Source of the DNA: Vulcanimicrobiota bacterium
Lineage (GTDB): Bacteria > Vulcanimicrobiota > Vulcanimicrobiia > Vulcanimicrobiales > Vulcanimicrobiaceae
Assembly: GCA_003151115.1 (NCBI GenBank)
Contig: PLWS01000005.1
Location: 62,001-126,000, forward strand
Direction: 5' to 3'
Length of the DNA: 64,000 nt
How positions within the stretch are numbered: the stretch's first letter is position 1; each line of letters begins with the position of its first letter. Position numbers and translations under genes: made by a program. The notes under the pieces were generated by a model. That model did not search any database, had not been told where the DNA came from, and saw only the letters and a program-made list of their open reading frames with translations. Positions 1,843 to 41,474 of this stretch are shown one piece after another.

Positions 1843-1863
1843 TACGTGCCGTGCGGGCCTCGC

Positions 1864-1938
1864 CCTTCGACAAACTCAGGATGACATCGTCGGCCGTGGT
1901 TCGACCGGGGCGCCTAATGGCGCCCGCTCACCATGACA
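1864..1938. repeat. Hairpin repeat pair (CCT/AGG copy plus GGT/ACC copy)
   Basis: Two repeat units in the same orientation, best read on the minus strand. The first (1864-1886) is CCTTCGACAAACTCAGG followed by ATGACA. The second (about 1896-1938) has TGGTTCGAC, then a stem GGGCGCC-TAAT-GGCGCCC, then GCTCACCATGACA. They fill the space between two convergent genes. The same two unit types recur elsewhere in the window (20022, 21626, 41312). Confidence 0.85.
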
Positions 1939-20021: not shown

Positions 20022-20065
20022 TGTCATGGTGAGCGAGCGCCATTAGGCGCTCCAGTCGAACCACG
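20022..20065. repeat. Hairpin repeat (GGT/ACC type)
   Basis: One copy, plus orientation: TGTCATGGTGAGC, then stem GAGCGCC-ATTA-GGCGCTC, then AGTCGAACCACG. The stem differs from the copies at 1896 and 41432 (GGGCGCC/GGCGCCC) by a compensatory A-T for G-C change. It sits between convergent genes, immediately after the holB stop codon. Confidence 0.85.
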
Positions 20066-21625: not shown

Positions 21626-21813
21626 TGTCATGGTGAGCGGCGTTCGCTTCGCGAACGCCAGTCGAACCACGCTCGAGCGCAGCGCGCGATAGCGCGCTAA
21701 GACGAGAGCCGCATTAACGCGGGCCTCGACGTGCGCGCCTAAAGGGCGCGCTGCTCGGCCGTCCTTCGACGACGCGTTCATCCTTACCGGATGAACGGCT
21801 GCTCAGGATGACA
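21626..21813. repeat. Composite hairpin-repeat block
   Basis: This 188-base block fills most of the gap between mtnP and the nuclease-like gene. It contains a GGT/ACC copy (TGTCATGGTGAGC, stem GGCGTTCGC/GCGAACGCC, AGTCGAACCACG), a middle hairpin (GTGCGCGCC-TAAA-GGGCGCGC) that may be a degenerate unit, and a CCT/AGG copy on the minus strand (stem CGTTCATCC/GGATGAACG, ending CTCAGGATGACA). The stems differ in sequence from those of other blocks while keeping full pairing. Confidence 0.8.
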
Positions 21814-25760: not shown

Positions 25761-25822
25761 GCCCTTCGATATGCGCTCCTACGGAGCGCTACTCAGGGTC
25801 CTTCGACAAGCTCAGGATGACA
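25761..25822. repeat. Two overlapping hairpin repeats (CCT/AGG type)
   Basis: On the minus strand the first unit reads TGTCATCCTGAGCTTGTCGA followed by AGGACC; the second continues CCCTGAG with stem GCGCTCC-GTA-GGAGCGC and ends ATCGAAGGG. The two share CCCTGAG/GGACC bases at their junction. They lie between the secreted protein and the rhodanese gene, 2 bases after the rhodanese stop codon. Confidence 0.85.
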
Positions 25823-32129: not shown

Positions 32130-33011
32130 CTAAGTAAAGGCCTGTTCGGCGTGATACGAACTGCGCGAGAGCGGGCTCGAAACGACTTGGTGGAAGCCCT
32201 TGGTCCGCGCGAGCTCACCGAGCTGCGCGAATTTCTGCGGATGGACGAACGTTTCGACCGGCAGATGTTTCTTCGTGGGCTGCAGGTACTGGCCGATCGT
32301 AAAAATGTCGACACCGACCGAGCGCGCGTCGTTCATCGTCTGCTCGATCTCTTCGTCGGTCTCGCCAAGTCCGATCATGATCGAGGTCTTCGTATACCGT
32401 TCCGGCGCGCGCGACTTCGCGTGTTCGAGAATGCGTAACGATTGATCGTACTTCGCGCGTTTGTCACGTACACGCGGTGTGAGACGGCGCACCGTTTCGA
32501 CGTTATGCGCGAAGACGTCGGGCTTCGCATCGAGGACGATATCGAGCGCGTTCAGATCGCCGCGATAGTCGCCGCTCAAGATTTCCACGCGCGATCCCGG
32601 GACGCGTTCATGGATTTCGCGCACGGTGTTTGCGAAGATGAGCGCGCCGCCGTCGGCCAGGTCGTCACGATCGACCGCGGTTAAGACCAAATACTTCCAT
32701 CCAAGGTCGCGGACGGCTTCGGCTACGCGCACCGGCTCTCTCCAGTCGAGGGCGCCCTTCGGGTTCCCGGTTTTTACGTTGCAGAAGCGGCAGCCGCGCG
32801 TACACGTGTCGCCGAGAATCATAATCGTTGCCGTTCCCGCGCCCCAACACTCGGCGAGATTCGGACACATCGCTTCTTGGCAGACCGTATTCAAGCGCAA
32901 GCCCGTCACTTCGCGCTTCACGCGCTCGTAATCGTCGCCGTGCGGCAGTTTCACTTTCAGCCACTCGGGCTTGGGCACGCGCGGCTCTCGAGTTAAGTCG
33001 ACGTGTATCAT
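32130..33011 (-). CDS. lipA: Lipoyl synthase
   Basis: A 293-residue radical SAM enzyme with the two required clusters: Cys44, Cys49 and Cys55 (CQEAMCPNLAEC) for the auxiliary sulphur-donor cluster, and Cys70, Cys74 and Cys77 (CTRGCRFC) for the SAM cluster; the C-terminal SSYHAEQ holds the conserved Ser. It inserts two sulphurs into octanoyl chains on lipoyl domains. Its ATG overlaps the lipB stop as ATGA. lipB and lpd lie upstream on the same strand, giving a lipoate block. Confidence 0.96.
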   Translation of the reverse strand: MIHVDLTREPRVPKPEWLKVKLPHGDDYERVKREVTGLRLNTVCQEAMCPNLAECWGAGTATIMILGDTCTRGCRFCNVKTGNPKGALDWREPVRVAEAVRDLGWKYLVLTAVDRDDLADGGALIFANTVREIHERVPGSRVEILSGDYRGDLNALDIVLDAKPDVFAHNVETVRRLTPRVRDKRAKYDQSLRILEHAKSRAPERYTKTSIMIGLGETDEEIEQTMNDARSVGVDIFTIGQYLQPTKKHLPVETFVHPQKFAQLGELARTKGFHQVVSSPLSRSSYHAEQAFT

Positions 33012-33790
33012 GCAACGACTCGTGCAGCGTCGTTGGAAAGGGCGATGGTTTCAGTTGTCATCGTGAGTTCATCGAACGACCCGCCGCAGTCCTGAGCGAG
33101 CGGAGCGAGTCGAAGGGAATGCGCCGTAGGTGCATCAGTCGAGGGGACCCACTCCAACGAAAATTCACGAGCGAAAGCTTCGAGCAGCGCGTCGCGAGCT
33201 TCCGCGATCGAAATCGCGCGGCCCGTTTCGCGTGAAAGGCTCGTTAGGCCGCGATCACTGAAGCCACACGGATTGATGAGCGAGTCGTAGCTCAAGTCGT
33301 TTGAAACGTTAAGCGCGATGCCGTGCATCGACGTCATCTTTCTTACGGCCAACCCGATCGCGCAAAGCTGATCGTTGCCGACCCAAACCCCGGCGTGTTC
33401 CGCGCAGCGCTCGCCCGTGACGCCGAACCGCGTGCATGCCTCGATGACCGCGCTCTCAAGCGCGCGCACGAGCGGTACGACTTCGCGAAAGCGTGCAAGC
33501 CTCCGAATCGGATACACAACGAGCTGCCCCGGCCCGTGATAGGTGACGTCGCCGCCGCGTTCGATCTCGACGAGATCCACGCCCCGCTTCGCCAGCGCTT
33601 CCTTTGAAAGCAGAACATTGGCGTTCTTAGCATTCCGGCCGAGCGTAATGACTGGCGGATGCTGTACGAAAATCCACGTCTCCGGCTCTTGGCCGCTGCC
33701 GACCAGTTCGTGCAGCTCATGCTGTAGCTGCCAAACCTCACGGTAAGGCCGCAACCCGAGATCGAGCACCCTGGCGAACATTTCAGCCAC
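33008..33790 (-). CDS. lipB: Octanoyltransferase LipB with a repeat-derived C-terminal tail
   Basis: A 260-residue LipB (BPL/LplA fold). RGGDVTYHGPGQLVVYP, KMTSMHGIALNV with the conserved Lys and NPCGF with the acyl-accepting Cys are all present. It transfers octanoate from ACP to lipoyl domains. Most LipB proteins end soon after the conserved core; here residues about 225-245 are encoded by a hairpin repeat (33057-33117) and a short tail follows. GTG 33790 or ATG 33781 can be the start. It overlaps lipA by 4 bases. Confidence 0.93.
   Translation of the reverse strand: MAEMFARVLDLGLRPYREVWQLQHELHELVGSGQEPETWIFVQHPPVITLGRNAKNANVLLSKEALAKRGVDLVEIERGGDVTYHGPGQLVVYPIRRLARFREVVPLVRALESAVIEACTRFGVTGERCAEHAGVWVGNDQLCAIGLAVRKMTSMHGIALNVSNDLSYDSLINPCGFSDRGLTSLSRETGRAISIAEARDALLEAFAREFSLEWVPSTDAPTAHSLRLAPLAQDCGGSFDELTMTTETIALSNDAARVVA
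33057..33117. repeat. Two hairpin repeats inside the lipB 3' end
   Basis: On the plus strand, TGTCATCGTGAG-TTCA-TCGAACGA (33057-33079) is a unit with CGT/ACG arms, and CCTGAGCGAGCGG followed by AGCGAGTCGAAGG (about 33091-33116) has CCT/AGG arms. They are translated from the minus strand as part of LipB. The CGT/ACG unit is the only one of its type in the window. Confidence 0.75.
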
Positions 33791-37297: not shown

Positions 37298-39301
37298 ATG
37301 CGCTTAGCAATAATCGCCGCGATTTCTATCGCGGTTTTGTTCCCGGCGGCGGCCTCCGCTCGTACCATCGACTTCAGCGATCTCCGCAATGTCGTATCGC
37401 TGAGCAGTCCGCAAATTTCCCCCGACGGGAAACGGATCGTGTTCTTGCGTTCGCGTCCGGATTTTACAAAGGATCGCTCGCCGAGCGATTTGATGCTCAT
37501 TGACGTGAAGACCAAAAGGGTACGCCAGCTCACGTTCAACCGCCGCGGCTTGAGTTCACCGCGCTGGTCGCCGGACGGATCGAGCATCGCGTTCCTGATG
37601 TCGACGACCGTTGAGGGCGTGACCGATCCGCAGGAAGAGATCTTCGTTCTGCCGTTGGACGGCGGCGATCCGCGGCCGATAACCAAAGCCGGGCAAGGCG
37701 TGGACGGATACGCGTGGAGCCCGAACGGGTCTCAATTTGCGTTCATCACGCAAGATCCGAATCCGTACAAGAAACAGGTCGATGCGCATCTCGACGCCTT
37801 CGAAATAGGTTCGAACGATTATCTGCACACCGAGGCGGCGATTCCGTCGCATCTTTGGGTTATCGGATCGAACGGCGGCACGGCAAAACGCTTGACGAGC
37901 GGGTCGTGGAGTTTAGGGATCGTGGATCCCGGTGTGACTTCCGCGTTGTCATGGTCGCCCGACGGAACGAAGATCGCGTTCGACCATTTCCCGACCGCAC
38001 TCAATGGCGATACTCTTGCCACGCACATCGACGTGATCGACGTACGCACCGGAAAGCGCGTGCCGCTGACCGGAAACTCGGGACTGGAAGGCGGCGGAAC
38101 ATTCGCGCCCGCCGGCTCTGCGATCTCATATTCGCGCAACGTCGCCGGCGATCCGACCAACGGAAACGCCATTTACGTCACACATCTTGGTGGTGGTCCG
38201 GGAAAAGATATTCGCACGGCGATCGATCGCACGATAAACGGCACAGATTGGGCTCCGAGCGGGAAAGCGATCTGGCTCTTTGGACCGGATGGATCGAGTG
38301 TGGCCGCGTGGTACCTCACGCTCGGCGGTTCGACGAAGCGGATCAATTTTGGTAGCGTCGCGATCTCACAAACCGGGCCGATCGCGCGCAAGACGGGTGC
38401 ATTCGCATTTACCGGAACGACGACGAACCATCCCGCGGAGCTGTACTACTTAGCCTCGCCGTCGGCGACACCGATCCGGCTCACGAATTACAACGGTTTC
38501 ATTTCAAAATTGCAACTTGGAAAAGTCACGGAAGTCAATTGGAAGAACGATGGCTTTGCCGAAGACGGCGTGCTCACGCTGCCGCCGTCCTTCGACAAAC
38601 TCAGGATGACAGGGCATAGGTTTCCTTTAGTTCTGGTGATCCATGGTGGGCCTCAATCGGCATCGACGCTGGCCTGGAATAGTCAGAATCAACTTTTTGC
38701 CGCGCACGGCTATCTAGTCTTCAATCCCAATTACCGCGGCAGCACGAATTTGGGCGATCGCTACGAACACGCGATCTGGCACGACGCCGGCGCGGGGCCG
38801 GGGCGCGATGTGATGGCCGGAATCGCAACCGTCGAGAAAGCTTATAAGGTAGACAAGAGCCGCGTCGCGGTTTCGGGCTGGTCCTACGGCGGCTACATGA
38901 CGTCGTGGATGACGGGCCACTACAACATTTGGAAGGCGGCCGTCGCGGGCGCGGCGCTCAACGACTGGTTCGACGACTACAACGTCGCGTTTTATGTCTA
39001 CACGGACGTGCCGTGGTTCGGCGGATCGCCGTGGAACCCGAAATATTCGGCGATGTGGCGCGACCAGTCTCCGATAACGTATGCGCAATCAATTAAGGCG
39101 CCGACGCTCATCATGGGCGACATCGGCGACAATAACGTGACGATCACCAATTCGTTTAAGATGTATCACGCGCTCAAAGACAACGGCGTGCCGGTACAGT
39201 TCGTGGCCTATCCTGTGCACGGACATTTTCCGAGCGATCCCGTTCGCTCCGAAGACGTTACGAGGCGCTGGCTGGCTTGGATCGACCGGTACTTGAGGTA
39301 A
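37298..39301 (+). CDS. S9 family peptidase (prolyl oligopeptidase-like), repeat inserted
   Basis: A 667-residue secreted peptidase: signal peptide (ISIAVLFPAAASA), an N-terminal beta-propeller (SPDGKR, WSPDGS, WSPDGT blades) and a C-terminal alpha/beta hydrolase. Ser529 in GWSYGGYM is the nucleophile, Asp lies in GDIGDNNVT and His in VHGHFPS. Residues 431-438 (SFDKLRMT) are encoded by an in-frame 24-base hairpin repeat at the propeller/hydrolase junction; the next gene, a close paralogue, has GYDASKAY there instead. It probably trims peptides in the periplasm. Confidence 0.9.
   Translation: MRLAIIAAISIAVLFPAAASARTIDFSDLRNVVSLSSPQISPDGKRIVFLRSRPDFTKDRSPSDLMLIDVKTKRVRQLTFNRRGLSSPRWSPDGSSIAFLMSTTVEGVTDPQEEIFVLPLDGGDPRPITKAGQGVDGYAWSPNGSQFAFITQDPNPYKKQVDAHLDAFEIGSNDYLHTEAAIPSHLWVIGSNGGTAKRLTSGSWSLGIVDPGVTSALSWSPDGTKIAFDHFPTALNGDTLATHIDVIDVRTGKRVPLTGNSGLEGGGTFAPAGSAISYSRNVAGDPTNGNAIYVTHLGGGPGKDIRTAIDRTINGTDWAPSGKAIWLFGPDGSSVAAWYLTLGGSTKRINFGSVAISQTGPIARKTGAFAFTGTTTNHPAELYYLASPSATPIRLTNYNGFISKLQLGKVTEVNWKNDGFAEDGVLTLPPSFDKLRMTGHRFPLVLVIHGGPQSASTLAWNSQNQLFAAHGYLVFNPNYRGSTNLGDRYEHAIWHDAGAGPGRDVMAGIATVEKAYKVDKSRVAVSGWSYGGYMTSWMTGHYNIWKAAVAGAALNDWFDDYNVAFYVYTDVPWFGGSPWNPKYSAMWRDQSPITYAQSIKAPTLIMGDIGDNNVTITNSFKMYHALKDNGVPVQFVAYPVHGHFPSDPVRSEDVTRRWLAWIDRYLR
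38588..38611. repeat. In-frame hairpin repeat inside the S9 peptidase gene
   Basis: TCCTTCGACAAACTCAGG plus ATGACA, identical over 23 bases to the intergenic copy at 1864 (CCT/AGG type). It starts exactly on a codon boundary and adds eight codons without a stop, so the protein frame is kept. Confidence 0.9.
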
Positions 39302-41305
39302 TGATGAAGCTCTTTGCTTTTGTTTCCGCGCTCGTTTTCGCCGCTGCAGCTTCGGCGTCCGCGCGTACGATGGTTTTGGACGATATGAAGTCGCTCTCGG
39401 GGCTTTCCGAACCGACGATCTCGCCCGACGGCAATACGATTGCATTCATTCTCTCCGTGCCCGACTATAAAGCGGACCGCAGCACGCGTACGCTGATGCT
39501 CTACACTCTGAGCGACTCGAGCACGCGCGCGTTGACGTCGGCGCGGCGTGGCTTCGCCGGCATGGTCGCCCGATGGGCGGCGCCTGGCGTTTCTCTCGAT
39601 AACGGGCGAAGGCGACAAAGCGGCCGAGCAAGTCTTCGTGTTGGATATGCACGGCGGCGATGCCGCGCAGCTAACACATGCGGCAAATGGGGTCGAGCAA
39701 TTCACGTGGCGCCCCGACGGCGGAGCGATTGCCTACGTCACGCCCGACAATCCGCCGAATAAAAAAGATATCGAGCACCACCTCGACGCCTTCGTCGTCG
39801 GCGATCAAGCCTATCAAGAAAAAGCGGCGCCTACGCCAAACCACATTTGGCTGATCAATGCCGACGGCTCGGGCAACAAACGCTTGACGCAAGGCCTGTG
39901 GAGCTTGCCCACCGCCACGCCGCCGGGTCCGCCTGCATCTCCGCTGTCGTGGTCGCCCGATGGGAAGTCGATCATCTTCACTCGTATGCCGAATGCTTAT
40001 GACACCGACGGGTATTTGGCCACGGTTGATGTGCTCGACGTGCAAACCGGTGCAATTCGCACGCTAACGTCGCACGGCAAGTACGAAGGGTACGGCAGTT
40101 ACTCGCCCGACGGAACCAAGATCGCTTACTGGTATCCGCTTCAAGGCGATCCTTCGGCGCAAAACGATGTCCTTGTAACCTCGGCAAACGGCGGTAACGG
40201 CACGGACGTCACGGCCGACGACATCGATACGAACGTGGCGCGCGCGATCTGGATGCCCGATTCGAAGGCACTATTGATTGCCGGGCACAAGGGCACCGAC
40301 GCGGCGCTTTGGCTGAAGCCGCTCGACGGCGCGGCCCAGCGCTTGCAACTCGGACCGGTGCAGCCGGTTCAGCCGTACTGGCTCGACGCCAGCGTTAGCA
40401 ACACGGGCGCGATCGCTTTTACGGGTAGCGAAGCGAACCACCCAACTGAGCTGTATTACATGAGCTCGCCGAGCGCGGCGCCGAAGCAGCTGACCTCGTA
40501 CAACGATGCAGTTGCGAAACTCGATCTCGGCAAAGTGCAACCCGTTAGTTGGAACTTCGAAGGCTTCTCCGAGAACGGTACGCTGACGTATCCGCCGGGA
40601 TACGACGCGAGCAAGGCGTATCCGCTGGTGCTAGTCGTTCACGGCGGCCCAAACTCCGCTTCGATTCTGTCGTTCAGCACGCTGAACCAACTGTTGGCGG
40701 CGCGCGGCTTCCTGGTCTTCAATCCGAATTACCGCGGCAGCGACAATCAAGGCGAGAAATACTGGCATGCGATCTTCAACGATGCCGGCGCGGGGCCGGG
40801 GCGCGACGTGATGGCGGGAATTGCAGCGGTCGAACAGGCTGCGCATGTCGATACTTCGCGCATCGGCGTTTCGGGCTGGTCATACGGCGGCTACATGACG
40901 TCGTGGCTTGAAAGCCATTACAATATATGGAAGGCGGCCGTCGCGGGTGCCGCCGTCAATAATTGGGTCGATGAATATGCGCTTTCGGACAACGGCGTAA
41001 CCGTCGGCATTTCGGAGATTCCGGGGTCTCCCTACGTCGGAAACAACATGGAAGCGTACCGTGCGCAGTCGCCGATCACATACGCGTGGAACATTACGGC
41101 GCCGACGCTTATCTTAAGCGATACCGGCGACGTGCGGGTTCCGATCACGCAGTCGTACGAAATGTTCCGCGCGCTCACCGATCACCACGTTCCCGTGCGC
41201 TTCTTCGCCTATCCGATTTCGGGGCATTCGCCGGGCGATCCGGTGCGCTCGATGGACGTAAACCGCCGCTGGATTGCCTGGCTAGTTCAGTATTTAAAGC
41301 CGTAA
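39301..41305 (+). pseudogene. S9 family peptidase, frameshifted near residue 85
   Basis: A tandem paralogue of the preceding gene. The signal peptide and first blade (MMKLFAFVSALVFAAAASA ... ALTSARRG) are in one frame; from about 39551 the similarity (ASPAWSPDGRRLAFL) continues in the frame that starts with GTG 39548. The intact paralogue reads RRGLSSPRWSPDG there, so five bases appear lost (or one gained). The rest is whole, with GWSYGGYM and SGHSPGD motifs. It may be a pseudogene, a phase-variable or frameshifted gene, or a sequencing error. Expressed from GTG 39548 it would lack a signal peptide. Confidence 0.75.
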
Positions 41306-41311
41306 CGCCAT

Positions 41312-41474
41312 CGTCATCCTGAGCCTGTCGAAGGACCTCGAGCAGGGCCCTTAGGGCCCGAGTCGAGAGGGATGCCCTCGTCCTTCGACACGCGCATCAA
41401 AGATGCGCTACTCAGGATGACATGCTCGGGGTGGTTCGACTGGGGGCGCCTAATGGCGCCCGCTCACCATGACA
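41312..41474. repeat. Composite hairpin-repeat block, three or more units
   Basis: From the left: a plus-oriented CCT/AGG unit (CGTCATCCTGAGCC, TGTCGAAGGACC); a middle hairpin GGGCCC-TTA-GGGCCC flanked by CTCGAG-like bases; a minus-oriented CCT/AGG unit with stem GCGCATC-AAA-GATGCGC; and a minus-oriented GGT/ACC unit with stem GGGCGCC-TAAT-GGCGCCC. The block occupies nearly all the space between two convergent genes. Confidence 0.85.

Follow-up and report, generated by a model that had tools for sequence, protein, structure and literature searches.

The 64-kb stretch of DNA analyzed here (the window) contains two tandem genes for S9 family peptidases, the first of which carries a copy of a short REP-like repeat within its reading frame. 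The features of this locus are as follows.

37298..39301, + strand: S9 family peptidase (beta-propeller plus alpha/beta-hydrolase, PF00326), the repeat-bearing gene, an ORF of 667 aa
38588..38611, − strand: REP element, first hairpin only; tag strand TGTCA-TCCT-GAG-TTTGT-CGA-AGGA; the + strand encodes SFDKLRMT (residues 431-438)
38588..38623, + strand: 36-nt carrier-specific stretch (SFDKLRMTGHRF), which replaces 24 nt of non-carriers (e.g., GYNAQKSY)
39548..41305, + strand: repeat-free S9 peptidase paralogue in tandem, with PPGYDASKAYPL at the equivalent turn

Pfam analysis placed PF00326 in the repeat-bearing peptidase with an E value of 2.9e-40, and the catalytic motifs are GWSYGG, with Ser529, and VHGHFP, with the His. 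Occupying 38588-38611, the 24-mer TCCTTCGACAAACTCAGGATGACA begins at a codon boundary within ORF 37298-39301. Its position, codon boundary, and translation all agree with a preliminary description of this DNA, as does the identity over 23 bases with an intergenic copy (38589-38611 equal 1864-1886). The net gain of four residues that this description reported also holds: at the equivalent turn, the gene has PPSFDKLRMTGHRFPL and the paralogue has PPGYDASKAYPL. The repeat had been called an inserted unit, and the 24-mer is indeed there, but not as a clean 24-nt insertion; in carriers, 36 nt (SFDKLRMT plus GHxF) stand for 24 native nt. Likewise, the site is not the propeller-hydrolase linker proper, as the word "hinge" had implied, but a turn right before the first well-conserved hydrolase strand, FPLVLVIHGGP. 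This turn varies in length among solved S9 enzymes (8wt1: PPELDE----GEKAPLVV). Fold, catalytic motifs, and turn position are alike in S9 peptidases of the S9C/DPP IV clan (solved examples 8wt1, 5yzm, and DPP4), whereas the window enzyme has REP-encoded residues in the pre-strand turn. AlphaFold modelling of the peptidase, based on both window paralogues, gave a mean pLDDT of 42, and the model was set aside. The paralogue has an apparent frameshift near 39540-39560 (window 39303-39600), with its N-terminal part in another frame; it is intact in sister species, and the frameshift in the window genome reflects either pseudogenisation or an assembly error.

The 24-mer is a member of a repeat family. 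At up to three mismatches, the window holds 5 copies, against 0 in 100 shuffles, and the window genome (2.56 Mb in 8 contigs, 98.5% complete) holds 75, with 0 for the reversed pattern; the REP-like element totals about 80 copies in this genome. Copies in the window outside the S9 gene are listed here.

1863..1886, − strand: intergenic REP copy, first hairpin, equal to the S9 copy over 23 bases
1897..1938, − strand: REP copy, TGGT/ACCA stem subfamily, long apical hairpin
20022..20063, + strand: REP copy, TGGT stem, long apical hairpin
21626..21669, + strand: REP copy, TGGT stem, long apical hairpin
21762..21813, − strand: REP copy, TCCT stem, long apical hairpin
25762..25822, − strand: complete two-hairpin unit, first hairpin 25799-25822, second (CCCT-GAG...CGA-AGGG) 25762-25798
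33056..33079, + strand: REP copy, compensated TCGT/ACGA stem, in frame in the LipB C-terminal tail (SFDELTMT); second hairpin towards 33110
41312..41370, + strand: two-hairpin unit downstream of the S9 paralogue, first hairpin 41312-41335, second 41336-41370
41381..41422, − strand: REP copy, TCCT stem, long apical hairpin
41432..41474, − strand: REP copy, TGGT stem, long apical hairpin

On the opposite strand, the repeat follows the rule [T/C]GTCA, N4, GAG, loop, CGA, and N4' complementary to N4. Because the first scan had required complementarity, the stem was scanned again without that requirement, for 5-nt loops only. All four stem pairs were Watson-Crick in 65 of 83 matches in the window genome and in 104 of 132 foreign matches (80 loci in other genomes), and the reversed sequence gave 0. 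The N4 stem thus covaries both within the genome and between phyla. Across 55 distinct sequences, the covariation score was 0.501, compared with 0.164 in shuffles (0 of 500 reached it), and 88.4% of stem cells were paired, compared with 68.7%; the covariation was lost when the partner was shifted by one, two, or three columns. Thermodynamic folding of the 24-mer alone was no better than that of shuffles (not significant), and the short hairpin structure therefore rests on covariation. Between stem and loop, a mismatched GA faces GA, invariant in the motif as defined, and the base opposite the first A is C in 74 of the 83 matches in the window genome but T in 74 of the 132 foreign matches.

The loop has 5 nt in 65 of 90 copies and is longer in the others, some of which are nested or have apical hairpins. 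With any first base permitted in the scan, the tag was TGTCA in 87 of 90 copies and CGTCA in 3. Stems found in the window genome by the complementarity-requiring scan were TCCT/AGGA (53), TGGT/ACCA (34), and TCGT/ACGA, TGCT/AGCA, and CCCT/AGGG (1 each). A second hairpin of the same GAG...CGA plan follows 66 of 82 copies, whereas a control offset of +300 gives 3. Measured on 44 second hairpins, the apical stem has a mean length of 6.1 bp (3.5 bp in shuffles), although 43 of the 44 sequences differ. The S9 copy consists of the first hairpin alone, with no second hairpin, and may therefore be a partial copy made by another route. A heuristic gene call placed intergenic copies between convergent genes in 25 cases, codirectional genes in 20, and divergent genes in 5.

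The likeness of the S9 sequence to the repeat might instead be partly accidental. S9 turns often read PPxFDxxKKYPL, in which SFDK would be native and only 12 nt (LRMT) added. Native turns do come near SFDK (PPSYDSKK in G005 and PPHYDKHK in G033), and aligning SFDK to GYDA leaves an exact four-residue gap. However, all 24 nt equal a repeat variant found elsewhere in the window genome, in copies with a TTTGT loop, and 0 chance matches to the 24-mer are expected at up to three mismatches. These findings largely refute convergence or a native origin, which we consider very improbable; at most, native bases served as microhomology.

No Rfam family matched in the 64-kb window, and open-access literature searched with PELVEG, SFDKLRMT, or TTCGACAAGCTCAGG yielded no paper on the repeat; papers found with GTCATCCTGAG were unrelated. 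The closest published family is the CGTC-tagged REP superfamily of Di Nocera, De Gregorio and Rocco 2013 (PMC3733652). Those REPs are mostly head-to-head dimers with a terminal, unpaired CGTC tag that is often TGTC, matching the TGTC/CGTC tag here. Both families share AT at the stem start, a location mostly between convergent and codirectional genes, the lack of a dedicated transposase, occurrence in several phyla, and intragenic copies, often in replication and repair genes (PMC3733652). In contrast, the AT of CGTC-tagged REPs is complementary in stem positions 1 and 2, which is not the case in the window-genome repeat, and their 8 to 9 regular pairs differ from the 4(-5) Watson-Crick pairs, GA/GA mismatch, and one G-C pair seen here. 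The published loops have 4 to 5 nt; here 65 of 90 copies have 5-nt loops, about a quarter of copies have long apical hairpins in their place, and a second hairpin built alike comes after most copies. Because its stem is bulged, its apical hairpins can be long, and its unit comprises two hairpins, unlike the published description, we did not file the repeat as a plain CGTC-tagged REP.

Two other systems are comparable in part. The palindromic elements of Rickettsia (RPE; Ogata et al. 2000; presented in PMC10969869 and PMC3733652) are likewise short palindromic elements that lie in frame in unrelated protein genes and are read as extra residues. RPE are mostly longer, about 150 bp according to PMC10969869, whereas the S9 copy adds a net 4 residues. 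As with RPE, copies lie in frame in conserved genes with a relative whose site is empty, in S9, Mfd, FadB, and LigA. The Escherichia coli REPs of TnpAREP (RAYT) also have an unpaired tetranucleotide tag beside an imperfect palindrome with conserved mismatches, but the tag is GTAG rather than TGTC and the mismatch AA/GC rather than GA/GA (PMC8266576).

Alignment of close homologues, which the preliminary description had proposed as a test, showed that not all orthologues share the peptide. Among seven species of the genus, the insert SFDKLRMTGHxF is present in G000 (the window genome), G001, G002, and G006. The site is empty in G003, G004, and G005, and in the outgroup G033, which have eight native residues, e.g., GYNAQKSY. 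An artefact of assembly or binning can be dismissed almost entirely: although every genome compared is a draft assembly (5 to 130 contigs in the congeners), the insert occurs in four separately assembled species with conserved synteny and 83-87% protein identity to the window gene.

The species tree from five flanking genes, (((G000+,((G002+,G006+),G005-)),(G001+,G004-)),G003-) with support of 84-100%, pairs carriers with non-carriers, so that the carriers do not form a clade. This pattern could suggest that each of the four carriers acquired the insert independently at a hot site, and in the loops of LigA, ValS, and Mfd the REP version or frame received clearly differs between species. However, all four S9 carriers have the same frame and identical junctions, including GGGCAY-RRS-TTT outside the repeat, which makes one origin likely and parallel insertion improbable. 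Identical junctions in species that are not a clade point to one origin followed by short-tract exchange or loss. We found no cluster of carrier-specific sites outside the 36 nt. Introgression of a long insert-bearing segment was rejected: beyond the 36 nt, the flanks agree with the species relationships, and diagnostic sites are more numerous for other splits. The patchy distribution is best explained by short-tract recombination that passed the filled or empty allele from one species to another; a gain after the G003 split plus two replacements is an equivalent account.

In carriers, the dN/dS of the hydrolase domain (0.026-0.068) indicates strong purifying selection, as does that in non-carriers (0.056-0.062), and every congener retains intact Ser and His catalytic motifs. 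Together with the empty orthologous sites, these results support the proposal in the preliminary description that the repeat entered a live gene. Within the insert, synonymous variation among carriers affects 1 of 7 codons, against 4.1 expected (P about 0.02), which may be a sign that the insert is constrained at the nucleotide level or has spread recently, and is not neutral. Accordingly, the repeat might be retained for an action of its hairpin at the DNA or RNA level within the gene (mRNA stability, pausing, or protein binding) and not through mere tolerance of the peptide, and stems in coding copies of the ValS-type gene are preserved through compensatory or replaced arms. Against this, 31 of 481 other 7-codon windows of the S9 gene are equally invariant and three of the seven species live without the insert, and we consider such a function unlikely.

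The S9 gene is one of many that hold the repeat, which is beyond what the preliminary description could see. In the window genome, internal in-frame copies occur in Pfam-supported genes for S9, LigA, a class I (valyl-type) tRNA synthetase, Mfd, QueG, a FadB-like protein, and MazG, and C-terminal ones in LipB, a sigma factor, and a NuoG-like protein. N-terminal copies (OTC, PTPS, S13, aldo/keto reductase, YceI, and ZnuA) were excluded from the insertions because the true start codon may lie downstream. This survey covers in-frame copies. In-frame copies in other genomes, among the matches listed, include HsdM (L136), SMC (L148), CarB (L160), TrmFO/MnmG (L154), ArgS (L143), and an Lhr-type helicase (L176).

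At four in-frame loops, sister species differ in repeat version or reading frame. LigA (L230, G000:C3:19865-22000), the sole LigA match in the genome, carries within its adenylation domain a run of three first hairpins that amounts to about 45 residues; this loop contains other REP sequences in G003 and G005 and is short and repeat free in G001 and G002. The valyl-type tRNA synthetase loop (L239-L246) has TCCT versions in G000 and G001, TGGT versions in G002 and G005, and another frame in G003. The Mfd loop reads VVRQAHHD in G000, G002, and G005, has another version in G003, and has none in G001. The LigA, tRNA synthetase, and Mfd loops are thus recurrent REP sites. For FadB, a sister species without the element exists. 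In the tRNA synthetase of G000, the second hairpin stem is altered on both sides, from CCCC/GGGG to CGCC/GGCG.

Four of the six frames of the element are open (SFDKLRMT, VLRQAQDD, CHPELVEG, and VILSLSKD). A stop-free frame had been taken as a sign of insertion or tolerance; the frame is indeed open here, but because four frames of the element are, this is not peculiar to the S9 copy. The repeat accounts for the peptide strings SFDKLRMT, PELVEG, and ILSLSKD that are common in ORFs of many genomes, and the recurrence of such strings, mentioned in the preliminary description, was borne out: among the matches listed, in-frame copies lie in long ORFs and a 21-mer of the repeat occurs in Bacteroidota, Verrucomicrobiota, Eremiobacterota, Nitrospinota, Gracilibacteria, Leptospiraceae, and others. 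Across 59 relatives, the abundance of the repeat is patchy. The exact 21-mer also occurs, among the matches listed, in a MAG labelled Rickettsia typhi (L175), a bin that is possibly mislabelled; R. typhi is reported to be without CGTC repeats (PMC3733652).

Taken together, we assign a probability of roughly 85% to the reading that a REP-like element entered the S9 turn once, in frame, and was tolerated, the allele then being exchanged or replaced between congeners. On this reading, the element is short and non-autonomous and has a fixed architecture, with a TGTCA tag, a 4-bp covarying stem, an internal GA/GA mismatch (GAG...CGA), a 5-nt loop or apical hairpin on top, and usually a second hairpin of the same plan behind it. 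A first-hairpin copy, read in one of the four open frames, would have entered the length-variable surface turn, displacing about 12 nt of the native turn and preserving the frame. The protein presumably tolerated the insert, the eight residues having little effect on the enzyme, and filled or empty alleles may later have been swapped between congeneric species by short-tract homologous recombination or lost by replacement. Judged from sequence, S9 and the other repeat-bearing proteins seem to have kept their function. Selfish DNA that resides within genes is a known kind, and the S9 repeat is a well-supported instance of it.

As for its movement, the element may fold as single-stranded DNA and be copied by a factor acting on single strands, such as an HUH-type endonuclease or replication template switching. 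RAYT-associated REPs have a cognate Y1 transposase (PF01797) in the genome, whereas no RAYT gene was found in the genus here: PF01797 (Y1_Tnp) matched no gene in the window genome or its six congeners (G000-G006). We rejected a RAYT/Y1 transposase as the local mover, given this absence and the lack of the element at the relatives' Y1 loci examined (L178 has one 3.3 kb away). On contig C8 of G000 (182 kb; L019-L028, L077-L082, L098, and L106), copies are dense and 25 of 25 lie in one orientation, with genes balanced between strands; on contig C2 of G002, the figure is 11 of 11. These one-way copies fit a strand-specific process and might arise if insertion favours one strand during replication. 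A weak correlation links the orientation of the repeat to local GC skew (P 0.005).

A broader reading, which we offer tentatively and at somewhat less than even odds, is that a pan-bacterial two-hairpin REP family (TGTCA-N4-GAG...CGA-N4'), with no recognised transposase and strand-polarised spread, changes the same surface loops of essential proteins again and again, as is made possible by its four stop-free frames out of six. Related species would thus come to differ in their LigA, class I tRNA synthetase, and Mfd loops. In-frame residence itself is of a known kind (compare RPE), and the interest lies mainly in this recurrent rewriting. The same S9 enzyme with and without a repeat-encoded loop in close species is a clean natural experiment, and essential enzymes whose REP-encoded loops differ between sister species are a further comparison set. 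These cases make it possible to test with what frequency selfish hairpin DNA turns into protein sequence, whether such sequence is neutral, and by what means RAYT-less REPs move.

In LipB, the tail after residue about 207 (window 33008-33110) is made of a two-hairpin repeat copy. A copy is also found at the end of lipB in G002, and one lies nearby in G003. Antisense to lipB, an ORF containing VLSERSESKG (window 32828-33235, + strand) is the repeat read in another frame and is probably a spurious gene.
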